Shown here: positions 2-5,624 of the stretch, in pieces
How the letters are laid out: every line of letters begins with the position of its first letter
Position numbering within the stretch: the stretch's first letter is position 1
Assembly (NCBI GenBank): GCA_903930515.1
Contig: CAIYYW010000211.1
Location: forward strand, 1-5,624
Direction: 5' to 3'
DNA: 5,624 nt
Source: an uncultured delta proteobacterium
GTDB taxonomy: Bacteria > RBG-13-61-14 > DRUE01
Position numbers and translations under genes: made by a program
The notes under the pieces: model-generated
Database searches by the model: none
What the model was told of the DNA's origin: nothing
The model's input: only the letters and a program-made list of their open reading frames with translations

Positions 2-526
2 ATCGCGGCCGGCGTGATGAAAAAGCTCTTTGCCGAGACCTACAAATACCGCGCCTACAAGGACGGACCGTTTGTGGTTTATGTGATCAGTATGATCACC
101 CATACTATTGACGGAAGGCTGTCCATCGCCACCCCGGACGGAAGGCGCGCGGCTACCCCTTATGCCGCGAGCTGCAACCCTTATAATGTGGAACGATCGG
201 GCGTGACCGGGGCATTGAGATCGGTGTCCACGCTTCCTTTTGAGGATGTGATGGGATGCGCGGTCAACATAAAATTTCATCCGAGCGGGATCGGCGAAAA
301 TGCCGAGGCGCGCGCAAAATGGGTCTCGCTGATCCGGACCTATTTCCAACTGGGGGGATCCCAGGTTCAGCCCACGGTGGTCAGCGCGGAAATGCTCCGG
401 GCGGCCCGGTCCGATCCGGAAAGTCATCGGGACCTGATCGTGAAGGTCGGCGGATACAGCACCTATTTCGTGGACCTGGGACAGGAGATTCAAGACGAAA
501 TCATCGGCCGGACCGAACATTGCTAG
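2..526 (+). CDS. Glycyl radical enzyme (pyruvate formate-lyase-like), C-terminal fragment
   Basis: This is the last 174 residues of a GRE. The reading frame is open to the left window edge, so the true start and the catalytic-Cys half lie outside; GTG 14 and ATG 17 are internal codons. Family landmarks seen in order are TPDGRRAATPYA, VNIKFHPS, the YFQLGGSQVQP strand, and the glycyl-radical loop IVKVGGYSTYF near the C-terminus, followed by QDEIIGRTEH. The radical-bearing residue should be the second Gly of VGGY (codon 452-454). Family knowledge: this Gly is converted to a stable radical by an activase and passes the radical to a Cys thiyl that acts on the substrate; members include formate-lyases, diol and hydroxyproline dehydratases, choline lyase, decarboxylases and fumarate-adding enzymes. 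The usual Arg of RVxGY is Lys here. The QDEII-RT tail resembles the dehydratase/lyase groups more than PFL itself, but the substrate cannot be assigned from this end. The adjacent activase supports the call. Confidence 0.93.
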   Translation: MAAGVMKKLFAETYKYRAYKDGPFVVYVISMITHTIDGRLSIATPDGRRAATPYAASCNPYNVERSGVTGALRSVSTLPFEDVMGCAVNIKFHPSGIGENAEARAKWVSLIRTYFQLGGSQVQPTVVSAEMLRAARSDPESHRDLIVKVGGYSTYFVDLGQEIQDEIIGRTEHC

Positions 527-538
527 GCGGGGAATGAA

Positions 539-1447
539 ATGAGCGGGATGATTTTTGATTTTCAAAACTACGCGATCTATGACGGACCCGGGATCCGCAC
601 CTGCGTCTATTTCAAGGGTTGCCCGCTCAGGTGCTGGTGGTGCCATAACCCGGAAGGCCGGGATCAAAATCCGCAAATGGCTTACTGGAGAGAACGCTGC
701 CGGGCCTGCGGCAGATGCGTGGAACATTGCCCGGAAAAGGCGCTTTTGCTCAAGCAGGATATAGTGAGCCGGGATCGGCAACTCTGTGCCGCTTGCGGGA
801 AATGTGCGGAGGTCTGCCTCAATCAGGCGATGGAAAAAATCGGAGCCGAGATCACGGCTCAAGAAATCGTAAAAAAGGTTTTGCAGGACAAAATCTTCTT
901 TGAAAATTCCGGCGGCGGGGTCACCATCAGCGGGGGCGAGCCCACTTTCCAAAAAGATTTCCTGCTGGAACTGCTCGCGCAATTGAAATCATCCGGCCTT
1001 CAAACCGCCCTGGAAACCTGCGGACATTTTTCCGCAAACCTGGTCCAACCGCTGCTGGAGCTGAGCGATTTATTCTTATATGACTTGAAGCAGATCAACC
1101 CGCAAAAGCACCGGCAGGGAACCGGAGCGGATAATCAGATGATCCTGGAAAATTTCATCGCCATTTTCAAAAAAGCCGGGCCGGACCGGGTGATCGTCCG
1201 GATCCCGTTGATTCCCGGCTTCAACAACGATCCCGATTCCATCGCCGCCCTGATCGCGTTCCTGGACCAGGCCGGATACCGCGGCCGAGTCCACCTCCTG
1301 CCTTATCACCGCTGGGCCAAAGGGAAATATGAGCGGATCGGACGGGAATCGGAATTCAGGGAGCCGGCCGCCCTTGACCGGCTTGAGCTTGAGCGGATCA
1401 GCCGGGCATTTGAAAATTCCGGAATAAGCGTTTTGAATTATGGATGA
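539..1447 (+). CDS. Glycyl-radical enzyme activating enzyme (radical SAM, with 2x[4Fe-4S] ferredoxin insert)
   Basis: This 302-residue enzyme would cleave S-adenosylmethionine reductively and abstract hydrogen from the glycine of the GRE encoded just upstream, a cytosolic and anaerobic reaction. The N-terminus has the family signature YDGPGIRT and then the radical-SAM triad CPLRCWWC (Cys28, Cys32, Cys35). An inserted bacterial ferredoxin domain follows, with two CxxCxxCxxxC motifs (Cys54/57/60/64 and Cys83/86/89/93). That insert is typical of activases of dehydratase, decarboxylase and fumarate-adding GREs and is absent from PflA. The SAM-binding SGGEPT is at 131-136, and the C-terminal LLPYHRWAKGKYE matches the family. 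Length is normal. ATG 539 is preferred over the in-frame ATG 548 because a modest GGGGA (529-533) lies 5 nt before it. The 12-nt gap from the GRE stop suggests cotranscription. It would be specific for its neighbour; the substrate of that enzyme is unknown. Confidence 0.95.
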   Translation: MSGMIFDFQNYAIYDGPGIRTCVYFKGCPLRCWWCHNPEGRDQNPQMAYWRERCRACGRCVEHCPEKALLLKQDIVSRDRQLCAACGKCAEVCLNQAMEKIGAEITAQEIVKKVLQDKIFFENSGGGVTISGGEPTFQKDFLLELLAQLKSSGLQTALETCGHFSANLVQPLLELSDLFLYDLKQINPQKHRQGTGADNQMILENFIAIFKKAGPDRVIVRIPLIPGFNNDPDSIAALIAFLDQAGYRGRVHLLPYHRWAKGKYERIGRESEFREPAALDRLELERISRAFENSGISVLNYG

Positions 1448-1481: not shown

Positions 1482-3287
1482 GTGAAAATATTCTTGACCG
1501 GGCCGGACGGGTTATTGGGAAGCAATGTGGCCAGGGAATTGATCTCAGCCGGGCATTCGGTCAAAGCCTTTCTCCTGCCCGGAATTTCAGCCCCGACCCT
1601 GGAGGGTTTGGACCTGGAAAAAGCTGAGGGCGATCTGCTGGATGAAAATTTCAACCTGGCCCGGGCAATGGCCGGGTGCGACGCCGTAATCCATTGCGCG
1701 GCCATCACCGATCTCTGGGCCGACCCGAAGCTGACCTGGAAGGTTAATCTGGAGGGCACGCGCCGGATTTTGGACGGATCTCTGGCCGCCAAAATCAAGC
1801 GCCTGATTTTTGTCGGCTCGGCCAGCTCCTATCAGCCGGGCACTTTGGAAAAACCCGGTAACGAGACCGGCGGATTTCCAGCCGTCTATCACGGTGAGGC
1901 TTATATGGAGTCCAAGTATCAGGCGAGCGAGCTGGCGCGAAAGTATGTGCGCGAGCGCGGCCTGGACGCGGTGATCGTCACGCCCACCTTTATGATCGGT
2001 CCCTATGATTCGCGTCCGAGCGGCGGGGAAATGGTCCGGCAGTTTTTGGAAAAAGGAATGAGGGTGTCCACCCGGGGCGGAAGGAATTTCGCTTATGTCA
2101 GGGATGTGGCCGGGGCGATGGTCAATGCTTTGGACCGGGGCAAGACCGGCGAGAGTTATATCCTGGGCGGAGAGAATTTATCTTACTTGGAATTCTTCGG
2201 ACGGATCGCCAAAATCGCGGGCAGAAAGGCTCCCAACATATTGCTCCCGGACCCGCTGGTGCTTCTGGCCGGATCCGCAAGCTCGCTGGTCCAAAGAATC
2301 ACCGGGAAGAAAATGGTCTTCAACCGCCGGATCGCGCGCTACTCCCTGCTCAGCACCTTCTATAGTTCGGCCAAAGCGGAAAAAGAGCTCGGGCTGAAAC
2401 ATTCCCCGATTGATCTTGCCCTTGAGGAATCCATCGGCGCGCTCAGGAAATACGGACACCTTAACCTGGATCAAACCGGATTCTTCAAAGACAAGGCGGT
2501 CTTGATCACAGGCGGCAGCCGCGGGGTGGGCTTTGCAACCGCGCGCGAGCTGTCCTTGCGCGGGGCAAAGGTAGTGATCAGCGCCCGGGGCGCGAAGCGG
2601 CTGCTGGATTCCCGCGACCGGCTGGAGCGGATGGGCGCCGAGGTGGCGGCAGTGGCCGGGGATGTGGGCAAATGGGAAGACGCGGAGAAAATGGTGAACG
2701 CGGCGCTGGAGAAATTCGGCCGTCTGGACATCCTCATTAACAACGCGGGCGTGAGCATGCGCGGTAATTTTTCCGAGCTGGCTCCGGAAGTTATTGAACA
2801 GGTGTCAAGGACCAACCTGATCGGATGTCTCTATCCGACCCGGGCAGCGATCAACCATATCATAAAGAACCAGGGCCACATTGTTTTTATCTCCAGCATT
2901 GCCGGACTGTTCGGCCTGCCCGGCGCGAGCGTTTATTGCGCGACCAAGAAAGCGCTCACCGGCCTGGCCGAATCCATGCGCCTGGAGCTGATCCCGAAAG
3001 GGGTCCACATCGGGGTGGTATATCTCGGCTTCACCGAGCACGATCCGGAAAAGAGGATTATTGCCGCGGACAATCAACTGGTTCCTCCCGACCGGCCCGC
3101 GCATCATACCCAGGCCTTTGCCGCGGACCTGATCGTCGGGATGTTGCAAAAGAGGACAAGGCAATTGATTATGACCCCGATCGGAACCTTGGGCTGGCTG
3201 ATCTATCGGCTCTCGCCGGCCATGGTGGAAAAGGCTATTCTTTGGGCGCAGTCCAGCCAGTGGGCGGTTTTCAAAAGGTTTTCTTAA
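1482..3287 (+). CDS. Bidomain oxidoreductase: extended SDR (epimerase/3beta-HSD-like) fused to classical SDR
   Basis: The 601-residue protein is two complete Rossmann-fold dehydrogenases in one frame. Domain 1 (about 1-330) is an extended SDR of the NAD-dependent epimerase/dehydratase or 3beta-hydroxysteroid dehydrogenase type, with TGPDGLLG at 6-13, HCAAITD at 71-77, Ser115/Ser116 and YMESK (Tyr141, Lys145), then TPTFMIGP. Domain 2 (about 335-601) is a classical SDR with TGGSRGVG at 343-350, NNAG at 420-423, Asn445, Ser472 and YCATK (Tyr485, Lys489). Both catalytic sets look intact, so two NAD(P)H-dependent carbonyl/alcohol reactions, perhaps consecutive, are plausible. After about residue 550 comes a hydrophobic, amphipathic tail rich in Trp, Leu and Ile, which could associate with membrane; there is no signal peptide. 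Domain 2 broadly resembles lipid or ketosphinganine-type reductases, but this is only an impression. The gene starts 34 bp after the activase and ends 13 bp before the ADC-like gene. The substrate is unknown. Confidence 0.9.
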   Translation: MKIFLTGPDGLLGSNVARELISAGHSVKAFLLPGISAPTLEGLDLEKAEGDLLDENFNLARAMAGCDAVIHCAAITDLWADPKLTWKVNLEGTRRILDGSLAAKIKRLIFVGSASSYQPGTLEKPGNETGGFPAVYHGEAYMESKYQASELARKYVRERGLDAVIVTPTFMIGPYDSRPSGGEMVRQFLEKGMRVSTRGGRNFAYVRDVAGAMVNALDRGKTGESYILGGENLSYLEFFGRIAKIAGRKAPNILLPDPLVLLAGSASSLVQRITGKKMVFNRRIARYSLLSTFYSSAKAEKELGLKHSPIDLALEESIGALRKYGHLNLDQTGFFKDKAVLITGGSRGVGFATARELSLRGAKVVISARGAKRLLDSRDRLERMGAEVAAVAGDVGKWEDAEKMVNAALEKFGRLDILINNAGVSMRGNFSELAPEVIEQVSRTNLIGCLYPTRAAINHIIKNQGHIVFISSIAGLFGLPGASVYCATKKALTGLAESMRLELIPKGVHIGVVYLGFTEHDPEKRIIAADNQLVPPDRPAHHTQAFAADLIVGMLQKRTRQLIMTPIGTLGWLIYRLSPAMVEKAILWAQSSQWAVFKRFS

Positions 3288-3300: not shown

Positions 3301-4068
3301 ATGGGATTTGTCAAAACCAGGCAGGAGTTGGAAAAATATTACTCCATCAAGGACCGGAAATTCATCGGCGCGAAAATGATGGGCGTGCTGTTTGAGACCA
3401 AGCCGGAAATAGTGAAGCGGCTTCTGCCCGAGCCGCTGGTTCCGGCGGACGCGCCCGGCGCGATGATCTTCATCGCCCAGTATCCGGAGACCAACCTCGG
3501 CCCGGGTTACCGCGAGGCCGCCCTGTTTTTGCGCTGCAAATATGGAAACGAGCCAGGCACTTATTGCCTGGAAATGCCGATCCAGAGCGAGGAATCAAGG
3601 CTTTACAACGGGAGGGATATTTTCGGCTTTCCCAAAAAAATAGCCGAGATTCACCTGGAGAAAAACGGCCCGGCCGCTTCCGGCTGGGTGGAGCGGAAGG
3701 GAATAAAATTCCTGGAACTGAAAGTGAACCTTACCGGGCGGCTTCCGGGCTTGCCCCCGTCCGGTCCGAATTTCCTGTTCAAGGGAATGCCTAAAATAGA
3801 TTTGACGCCCGGGTTTGACGGCCCGCTGTTTTTATGCAAACAGCAGACCGAGGTGGAAGTGCAAAGCCTGGAGATCGGCTCCGCGGAATTGATCTTGCGG
3901 CCGTCGGATTCCGACCCCTGGGCCGAGGTGGAGCCGGTAAAAATAATGGCCGGATTCTTCCTGGTCAGCAATAACACGATGTTGCCGGGAAAAGTGATCA
4001 AGGAAGTGGATGGAGAAGCATATCTTCCATACTATTTCAAAATCACGGATTTTTTCGCCGGGAAATAA
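3301..4068 (+). CDS. Acetoacetate decarboxylase-like (ADC superfamily) protein
   Basis: This 255-residue protein has the usual length of the family. The hallmark GRDIFGFPKKIAEI at about 104-117 matches the active-site lysine segment of acetoacetate decarboxylase. Lys112 would form the Schiff base and Lys113 would lower its pKa. The N-terminal RLLPEPL (40-46) and YRE (Glu72, equivalent to Glu76 of the Clostridium acetobutylicum enzyme) also fit. By hand alignment against the remembered clostridial sequence, the residues equivalent to Arg29 and Glu61 are not conserved (Ala24 or Lys25 in place of Arg, Phe57 in place of Glu). Family knowledge: members with altered pockets catalyse decarboxylation, but also aldol/dehydration or cyclisation through the same imine. 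The substrate is therefore more likely a larger beta-keto acid or other keto acid than acetoacetate, and decarboxylation itself is not certain. No signal peptide is present. It is 12 bp from the acyl-CoA dehydrogenase-like gene, so the two probably act in one pathway. Confidence 0.88.
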   Translation: MGFVKTRQELEKYYSIKDRKFIGAKMMGVLFETKPEIVKRLLPEPLVPADAPGAMIFIAQYPETNLGPGYREAALFLRCKYGNEPGTYCLEMPIQSEESRLYNGRDIFGFPKKIAEIHLEKNGPAASGWVERKGIKFLELKVNLTGRLPGLPPSGPNFLFKGMPKIDLTPGFDGPLFLCKQQTEVEVQSLEIGSAELILRPSDSDPWAEVEPVKIMAGFFLVSNNTMLPGKVIKEVDGEAYLPYYFKITDFFAGK

Positions 4069-4080: not shown

Positions 4081-5283
4081 ATGATAGATTTTGAGTTGAC
4101 GGAAAGCCAAAAGCAGATTGTGGGAACCGCCCAGGAGTTTGCCCGGGAAGTGCTGGGTCCGGCCGAGGTTGCGCTGGACAAAATTTCCGATCCGGAACAG
4201 GTGTTCCAAGGCAAACTGTACTGGAATTGCATGGCGCAGGCCTTTGAACTCGGCTTTCATAAAATGGCGATCCCGGAAAAATTCGGCGGACTGGGCTTGG
4301 ACCCGCAGTCCACCCACCTGGTCTGGGAGGAGATTGCCAGATGGGCGCCTGGTTTCGCGGCCGGCCTGATCCCGTCGGGGGTTGCCCCTCAGTTGATCTG
4401 CTTTTTGACCCCGGACCGGAAAGATCTGACGGAAAAATTCGTGGCGCCTTATTGCGAGGATAAAAGCGGAAAGCGGATCACTTCCTGGTGCAGCAGCGAG
4501 CCGGAGATCGGCACGGACGGAAGCAACTATTATGATCCCAAGGTTCATCATCACACTTCCGCGGCCAAAAAAGGAGACCGCTACCTTCTGACCGGGGCCA
4601 AGTCGGATTTTGTCAGCAACGGAGGGGTCGCCGACTCCTACATTGTTTTCGCCTGCACCAACCCGGAACTGGGGATCAAAGGATCGGGCACCTTCGTGGT
4701 TCCGGCAAACGCCAAAGGATTAAGCCACGGCAAAGCCCTGGACAAAATCGGCCTGCGGGTTCTGAACCAGGCGCCGGTGGTTTTTGACGAGGTGGAGGTT
4801 CCGGGGGAATATTTGCTTTTCCCTTGCGGAGAGTTATATCCCATGCTCCACAATTCCATCATCACGGTCGGGAACCTGGCGGTCGGATATTTGGCCGTGG
4901 GGATTATGCGCGGCGCGTATGAATACGCCCTGGAGCATTCCAAGAAACGGGTGCAGTGGGGAAAACCGATTTTCCAGCATCAGTTGACCGCGGCCAAACT
5001 TTTTGAGTGCTGGCAGGCGATTGAGTCGGCGCGCGCCTTTCTCTGGAAGGGGAGCTGGCTGAGCAAAAACAAGTTCCTGGGAGATGTAAAAACCAGCCTG
5101 GCCGCCAAGGTATATGCCACCAACCAGGCGGTCAAGCAGACCGCGGAGATGATCCAGGTGCTGGGCGGATACGGGATCAGCAAGGAATACCCGGTGGAAA
5201 AATTCGCCCGCGACGCCAACCTGCTCAAGATTATGGACGGCGCCAACGATATCCTTATTGCCAAGGCCGCGGCGTTTTTATAG
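4081..5283 (+). CDS. Acyl-CoA dehydrogenase family protein (atypical catalytic residue)
   Basis: The 400-residue flavoprotein has the full family architecture: an alpha-helical N-terminal domain beginning with FELTESQKQIV, PEKFGGLGLD at about 65-75, the FAD/substrate loop CSSEPEIGTDGSN (Glu140-Pro141), KGDRYLLTGAKSDFVSNGG in the beta domain, KRVQWGKPIFQHQ, and the C-terminal LGGYGISKEYPVEKFARDA. Members remove hydrogens from C2-C3 of acyl-CoA thioesters using FAD and pass electrons to ETF. The residue in the catalytic-Glu position (Glu376 of medium-chain dehydrogenase, in the motif YEGT) is Asp386 here (IMDGAND). The alternative Glu of isovaleryl- and long-chain-type enzymes is also absent by hand alignment (Gly there). 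The flavin-contacting Trp motif KxWITN reads KSDFVSN, one residue longer and with Phe. This resembles an uncharacterised subfamily with KSxWVSNG and EDGTND motifs that I recall only loosely. Substrate and reaction direction are unknown. It is the last gene of the tight gene run. Confidence 0.9.
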   Translation: MIDFELTESQKQIVGTAQEFAREVLGPAEVALDKISDPEQVFQGKLYWNCMAQAFELGFHKMAIPEKFGGLGLDPQSTHLVWEEIARWAPGFAAGLIPSGVAPQLICFLTPDRKDLTEKFVAPYCEDKSGKRITSWCSSEPEIGTDGSNYYDPKVHHHTSAAKKGDRYLLTGAKSDFVSNGGVADSYIVFACTNPELGIKGSGTFVVPANAKGLSHGKALDKIGLRVLNQAPVVFDEVEVPGEYLLFPCGELYPMLHNSIITVGNLAVGYLAVGIMRGAYEYALEHSKKRVQWGKPIFQHQLTAAKLFECWQAIESARAFLWKGSWLSKNKFLGDVKTSLAAKVYATNQAVKQTAEMIQVLGGYGISKEYPVEKFARDANLLKIMDGANDILIAKAAAFL

Positions 5284-5325: not shown

Positions 5326-5624
5326 ATGAAGATTGTTAAGGCCGTAAAAATATCTTTCCTGCTCAGTTGGATCTTAACCGCCCCAGCCATCTTTGCCCAG
5401 AATCAGCAGGCCGTTGCGAAAAGTCCGCTTGACCGGTTCAGCGCCGGGCAAAAGCAGAAGTTGCTTAAGGGGGAAGCGATTTATGAGAGCGTGAAAGAGC
5501 CTGACGCTCAGGGCAAAATTTATGGACACGCCCAATCCGTCGTGATCATCAATGCTGATCTTGAGCAATGTTTTAAAATATTCTGCGAGTTTGACAAACA
5601 GCAACTATATTTCCCGCGCAAGAC
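5326..5624 (+). CDS. Secreted START/SRPBCC-like domain protein, N-terminal fragment
   Basis: The frame stays open for 99 codons to the right window edge, so the 3' end is missing. ATG 5326 is preceded by AAGGGG (5312-5317) at 8 nt. Residues 1-24 form a Sec signal peptide: basic start (Lys2, Lys5, Lys8), hydrophobic core ISFLLSWILTAPA, and a likely signal-peptidase I site AIFA/QN after Ala24, so the mature protein is probably periplasmic or secreted. Cys occurs only at 82 and 87, so it is not a lipoprotein. Residues 63-98 (GKIYGHAQSVVIINADLEQCFKIFCEFDKQQLYFPRK) match the opening of SRPBCC/START-like folds: a beta strand ending in an INA-x-x-E turn, then the helix and the FD-x-x-x-x-FP segment. 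Such domains bind hydrophobic ligands, and no catalytic role can be inferred. The gene is visibly less GC-rich than those upstream and may be a separate unit. The domain call is moderate because only its first third is visible. Confidence 0.7.
   Translation, partial: MKIVKAVKISFLLSWILTAPAIFAQNQQAVAKSPLDRFSAGQKQKLLKGEAIYESVKEPDAQGKIYGHAQSVVIINADLEQCFKIFCEFDKQQLYFPRK

Follow-up and report, generated by a model that had tools for sequence, protein, structure and literature searches.

The gene at 1482..3287 (+) of the window, i.e., the whole stretch of 5624 bp analysed here, which makes up an entire contig (G000:C211) of a draft genome, encodes a 601-residue protein in which an extended and a classical SDR are fused in a single chain, as indicated by Pfam, AlphaFold2 modelling and comparison with orthologues. 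The fusion is real, but ordinary in its parts and in its mode of origin. We consider it nearly, though not quite, an even prospect that it arose by loss of a stop codon and serves two hydroxyl/carbonyl interconversions of one intermediate in an anaerobic pathway initiated by a glycyl radical enzyme (GRE). The best indication of the chemistry comes from the upstream GRE and its activase, which were omitted from the original prediction; the fusion itself is a modest finding, and the unexplained pathway of the operon is the more interesting part.

Domain structure of the fused dehydrogenase

Positions 1482-3287 (+) form one intact open reading frame that starts with GTG and is preceded by AAGGAG. 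Based on Pfam, NCBIfam, the alignment of orthologues and the nearest structures, the extended SDR half comprises residues 1-327 (1482..2462, +) and the classical SDR half residues 331-601 (2472..3284, +); the stop and start codons of split orthologues map to the linker at 2463..2480 (+). The N-terminal half is matched by the Pfam domain Epimerase (PF01370, residues 3-229, E 3.4e-36) and carries the cofactor motif of extended SDRs, TGPDGLLG (residues 6-13; 1497-1520, +), and the YxxxK motif with Tyr141 (1902-1904, +) and Lys145 (1914-1916, +). Correspondingly, the C-terminal half is matched by adh_short (PF00106, residues 338-523, E 1.7e-50) and displays the classical cofactor motif TGGSRGVG (residues 343-350; 2508-2531, +) along with Tyr485 (2934-2936, +) and Lys489 (2946-2948, +). 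With an Epimerase-type domain, TGxxGxxG and YxxxK on one side and adh_short, TGxxxGxG and YxxxK on the other, the two halves qualify as an extended and a classical SDR, respectively; the motifs are kept in 14 orthologues of the former and 13 of the latter, and YxxxK occurs in every orthologue aligned (14 extended, 13 classical). An AlphaFold2 model of the fusion, computed from an input alignment of 22 orthologous rows, had a mean pLDDT of 92.5 and a pTM of 0.86.

The proposal that two SDRs of different type are fused is thus confirmed by the single frame and the two Pfam domains, all motifs lie where they had first been placed, and the conservation of YxxxK in all aligned orthologues fits the view that both domains are seemingly catalytically complete. 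The C-terminal tail had also been taken to hint at a lipid-like substrate. The helical tail is real, however, it also occurs in unfused orthologues and is therefore not peculiar to the fusion, and the hint at a lipid substrate is weak.

Origin and distribution of the fusion

To place the fusion among its relatives, sequences were collected from nine genome contigs and by whole-genome searches. The whole fusion was found in four other assemblies at 56-64% identity, in frame and with short linkers: two Hydrogenedentota (L019, L020), a member of the Phycisphaerae (L021) and a deltaproteobacterial/myxobacterial assembly (L027). A fifth fused relative (G286) continues in frame past the junction to query residue 357, where its contig ends. 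The possibility that the frame is a sequencing or assembly artefact, raised along with the original prediction, is ruled out by these in-frame relatives, and the fusion is genuine.

In eight further assemblies (L022, L023, L024, L025, L026, L044, L070, L071), the halves are separate neighbouring genes. Their homologous ends are 18-25 bp apart in six of the eight; at L025 the distance is 155 bp and the frame differs, and at L026 it is 783 bp with two small genes in between. The only stop between the halves at L022 is an in-frame TAG, and the junction site is identical in fused and split forms. As the split genes mostly lie about 20 bp apart, the fusion amounts to the loss of a stop codon. The genes between the halves at L026 are nucleotidyltransferase-like (6016-6327) and HEPN-like (6324-6698), by eye of the MNT/HEPN toxin-antitoxin type.

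In a tree of the concatenated halves, the window groups with L019-L021 (support 95/96), and L027 joins this group weakly (62/42), so that the fusion may have arisen once or twice. L026, from the window's sister species in the same genus, has the halves unfused and falls outside the window's group, which suggests horizontal transfer or an old duplication. Within the phylum of L027 the SDR pair is rare (3 of 282 genomes). No full match was found in phage records, and plasmid records yielded one distant pair of extended and classical SDR genes. On a plasmid of Hymenobacter volaticus (NZ_CP095063.1; L086, 9995-11867), an HpnA-like extended SDR gene overlaps a PRK06181-like classical SDR gene; the two belong to the same SDR branches as the halves of the fusion (34% and 42% identity) and adjoin a TIGR04283 glycosyltransferase gene and arsS, with no GRE in the stretch examined. 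This different setting suggests that the partnership of the two SDRs predates the GRE operon.

A recurrent operon surrounds the SDR pair

Within the window, the 3' end of a GRE gene is followed by genes for the GRE activase, the fusion, an ADC-like protein and an ACAD-like protein and by the start of a further gene. According to Pfam and NCBIfam, 2..526 (+) encodes the last 174 residues of the GRE, including the KVGGY motif with its radical Gly at about 452-454. The 5' part lies at the end of another contig (G000:C184, L079), which encodes residues 13-692, while residues 694-864 are in the window; on C184, a TetR gene precedes the GRE on the same strand. The GRE-activating radical SAM enzyme (302 aa; 539..1447, +) scores above the cut-off of TIGR02494 with 342 bits. 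The ADC-like protein (255 aa; 3301..4068, +) reaches 143.5 bits for PF06314 (cut-off 29.8) and carries PKK with Lys112/113 (3634-3639), so that by sequence it appears to have an acetoacetate decarboxylase domain with its Lys; all orthologues covering the site have PK[K/E] with the first Lys always kept, which we take to be the Schiff-base site. The ACAD-like flavoprotein (400 aa; 4081..5283, +) has Asp386 (5236-5238), kept in orthologues covering the site, at what is presumably the position of the usual catalytic Glu of short-chain ACADs. The last gene (5326-5622) starts a probably secreted protein that has no Pfam match and is truncated where the contig stops; the same genome has a paralogue at L009 3001-3564 (35% identity), likewise near an SDR gene.

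An operon of genes for TetR, a GRE subfamily, sometimes the activase, both SDRs, the ADC-like and the ACAD-like protein recurs across several phyla. It had been asked whether the separate halves occur elsewhere as adjacent genes near ADC-like and acyl-CoA dehydrogenase-like genes; they do in other genomes, which makes it reasonable that both SDR domains act in one pathway. A full-length GRE, 59-64% identical to that of L023, adjoins the SDRs in L019, L020, L021, L023, L025, L027, L044, L070 and L072, and a partial one in L022. The ADC and ACAD genes lie 3' of the SDR pair in L022, L023, L027, L044 and L070; at L025, an ADC gene following the pair is cut at the contig end, at L020 both genes are a few kb off on the opposite strand, and in genomes G098, G001 and G103 they are on separate contigs. 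In L025, L027, L044, L070, L071, L072, L079 and L085, a TetR homologue is found ahead of the GRE or the SDR pair; most loci whose contig covers that end have it upstream in the same orientation. In a small sample of 19 genomes picked via the SDR pair, a GRE of this subfamily (52% identity or more) occurred in 13 of the 14 genomes bearing the pair; the five that lack the pair (G002, G107-G110) had none. ACAD orthologues above 1e-140 were restricted to pair-bearing genomes. A search of the open-access literature retrieved no published operon combining GRE, SDR, ADC and ACAD.

Further genes accompany the operon at several loci. In L024, L026, L070, L071 and L079, it has a gene nearby for a hydrophobic protein of some 280 residues that matches no Pfam family. 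TauE/SafE-type membrane protein genes are found at L023 (2211-2960), L070 (13273-13995), L071 (11628-12347) and L085 (1073-1915) and at L022 (5595-6353). They fall into two families, one represented at four of these loci and the other at one; the organosulfonate role that they hinted at was dropped because this pattern is too inconsistent. In the window's own genome, an AbiEi/AbiEii-like gene pair lies upstream of the operon (L079, 3987-5890).

The GRE represents a distinct subfamily

Full-length orthologues of the GRE keep both GCV[E/D] and KVGGY, of which the window itself contains the Gly loop only. They thus have the Cys-x-Glu and glycyl radical motifs of GRE diol dehydratases. However, the positions of His283, Ser284 and Asp452 of RiPDH (5i2a), which we take to be its diol ligands, are occupied by Asn, Phe/Leu and Ser/Gly, respectively; the equivalent of His166 is kept. 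The orthologues score below the cut-off of every NCBIfam GRE model (TIGR01774, 483 vs 678 bits) and far below those of the equivalog models (best 441 vs 1000). Judged by sequence, the operon GRE is a distinct subfamily of putative dehydratase/eliminase type with C-x-E and without the known diol-dehydratase ligands. A sister GRE (52% identity) is encoded in genome G037 (C143; L082, 5462-11988) in a cluster with genes for GntR, an iron-dependent alcohol dehydrogenase, an activase and a classical SDR. This arrangement fits a pathway in which radical elimination yields a carbonyl compound and alcohol dehydrogenases act next.

Proposed role and alternative explanations

The proposed role starts from what is observed, namely the fusion and its split orthologues, a conserved neighbourhood and intact catalytic motifs. 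From this we infer that both domains share an intermediate, what type of reactions take place and in which direction, and that the pathway operates anaerobically, the latter because known GREs are oxygen-sensitive. Within one operon, two neighbouring SDR genes would have lost the stop codon that separated them. The GRE, of dehydratase/eliminase type and activated by the radical SAM enzyme, would make or prepare a carbonyl compound, on whose carbon skeleton the extended and the classical SDR may catalyse two hydroxyl/carbonyl interconversions that depend on NAD(P)(H). The ADC-like protein may act on a keto acid by Schiff-base chemistry, the ACAD-like flavoprotein would introduce or remove a C=C bond, and the TetR protein probably controls the gene set. 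Most likely, both domains act on one intermediate of the GRE pathway, turning hydroxyl into carbonyl groups or the reverse, and the fused gene provides a Rosetta-stone hint in this direction. A more far-reaching version, in which an alcohol that is bulky or lipid-like is the substrate of the new GRE subfamily in an undescribed anaerobic pathway and the fused SDR passes the carbonyl between its active sites, is possible but doubtful. Against the proposed role stand loci L071 and L024, where the SDR pair is present with no GRE nearby, and the draft genome G103, the only pair-bearing genome without a GRE of the subfamily; the SDR pair can therefore occur without this GRE. The Hymenobacter pair of the same branches in its different setting is a further point against it.

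The fusion might also mean nothing mechanistically, the stop codon having been lost neutrally between co-translated genes whose products are independent and perhaps act on different intermediates. The short linker where split genes sit some 20 bp apart would agree with this, as would the persistence of both forms, including the unfused pair of the sister species with its two inserted genes. However, the fused form has been kept in a supported clade of the window, Hydrogenedentota and Planctomycetota (95/96), and we regard a neutral origin as rather unlikely. Less probable still is a four-electron acyl-thioester reductase resembling FCR1 and Maqu_2507, enzymes that take acyl-CoA to the alcohol (PMC3522743): one domain would convert acyl-CoA to the aldehyde and the other the unreleased aldehyde to the alcohol. 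The domain order is identical, both halves match NF005539/PRK07201 weakly but in the order extended then classical SDR, cinnamoyl-CoA reductase is among the nearest structures of the N-terminal half, and the ACAD-like gene implies CoA thioesters. Yet the fusion scores 147.4 bits for this model against a cut-off of 549, and its N-terminal half is Epimerase/HpnA-like (PF01370, 125 bits vs 38 for NAD_binding_4). By analogy, the two domains could act as a lipid-modifying pair, reducing sphingoid-base or similar long-chain ketones, since extended and classical SDRs function in bacterial and eukaryotic sphingolipid synthesis and the classical SDR BT_0972, a proven 3-ketosphinganine reductase, behaves as if membrane-associated; the classical SDR of the fusion has a predicted helical hydrophobic tail. 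This is very improbable, as the conserved neighbourhood contains no sphingolipid gene and sphingolipid synthesis has no step for GRE, ADC or ACAD.

A GRE subfamily below all NCBIfam GRE cut-offs that comes with the same SDR pair, and usually with ADC- and ACAD-like proteins, in uncultured bacteria of several phyla points to a pathway now open to experiment, for which the fused protein offers a handy single assay target.

Comparison with known enzymes and families

Among solved structures, the N-terminal half is nearest to Gox2253 (3wj7, 33% identity), followed by PA4631 and cinnamoyl-CoA reductase; the carbonyl reductases among its nearest solved relatives include Gox2253, cinnamoyl-CoA reductase and dihydroflavonol reductase. 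The C-terminal half is nearest to 3tjr, 5ig2 and 2jah. A VIA-align structure search gave no two-domain fusion among the matches listed, which were filled by single domains.

The best NCBIfam match of the N-terminal half is the hopanoid-associated sugar epimerase HpnA (TIGR03466), which it matches over its full length, but its 239.9 bits fall short of the cut-off of 367.65. None of the operon-bearing genomes tested encodes a squalene-hopene cyclase that passes the TIGR01507 cut-off; weaker relatives are present in G103 and G106. A hopanoid role, as the name HpnA might imply, is therefore not supported. Membership in SdmB of sterol demethylation (NF052578) is ruled out by a score of 127.7 bits against a cut-off of 600. 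The C-terminal half best matches PRK06181 (NF004825; 214 bits vs cut-off 215, and 232 bits for the orthologue of L023), a family with no assigned reaction, whose relatives here occur in a fusion or a fixed gene pair.

With (2S)-3-sulfopropanediol dehydratase, CutC and the propanediol and glycerol dehydratases, the operon GRE has the fold family, Cys-x-Glu and the Gly radical loops in common, but it differs from the diol-type enzymes in the three RiPDH ligand positions and in its far lower equivalog scores. As to the fusion, it had been stated that no characterised enzyme with this domain order was recognised. This did not hold, as FCR1 (Rv3391, AcrA1; 650 aa) and Maqu_2507, both of the PRK07201 type, have the same order of extended then classical SDR and a similar chain length. 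The fusion is excluded from this fatty acyl-CoA reductase family by its score; its N-terminal half comes from another branch of the extended SDRs, and its gene has different neighbours.
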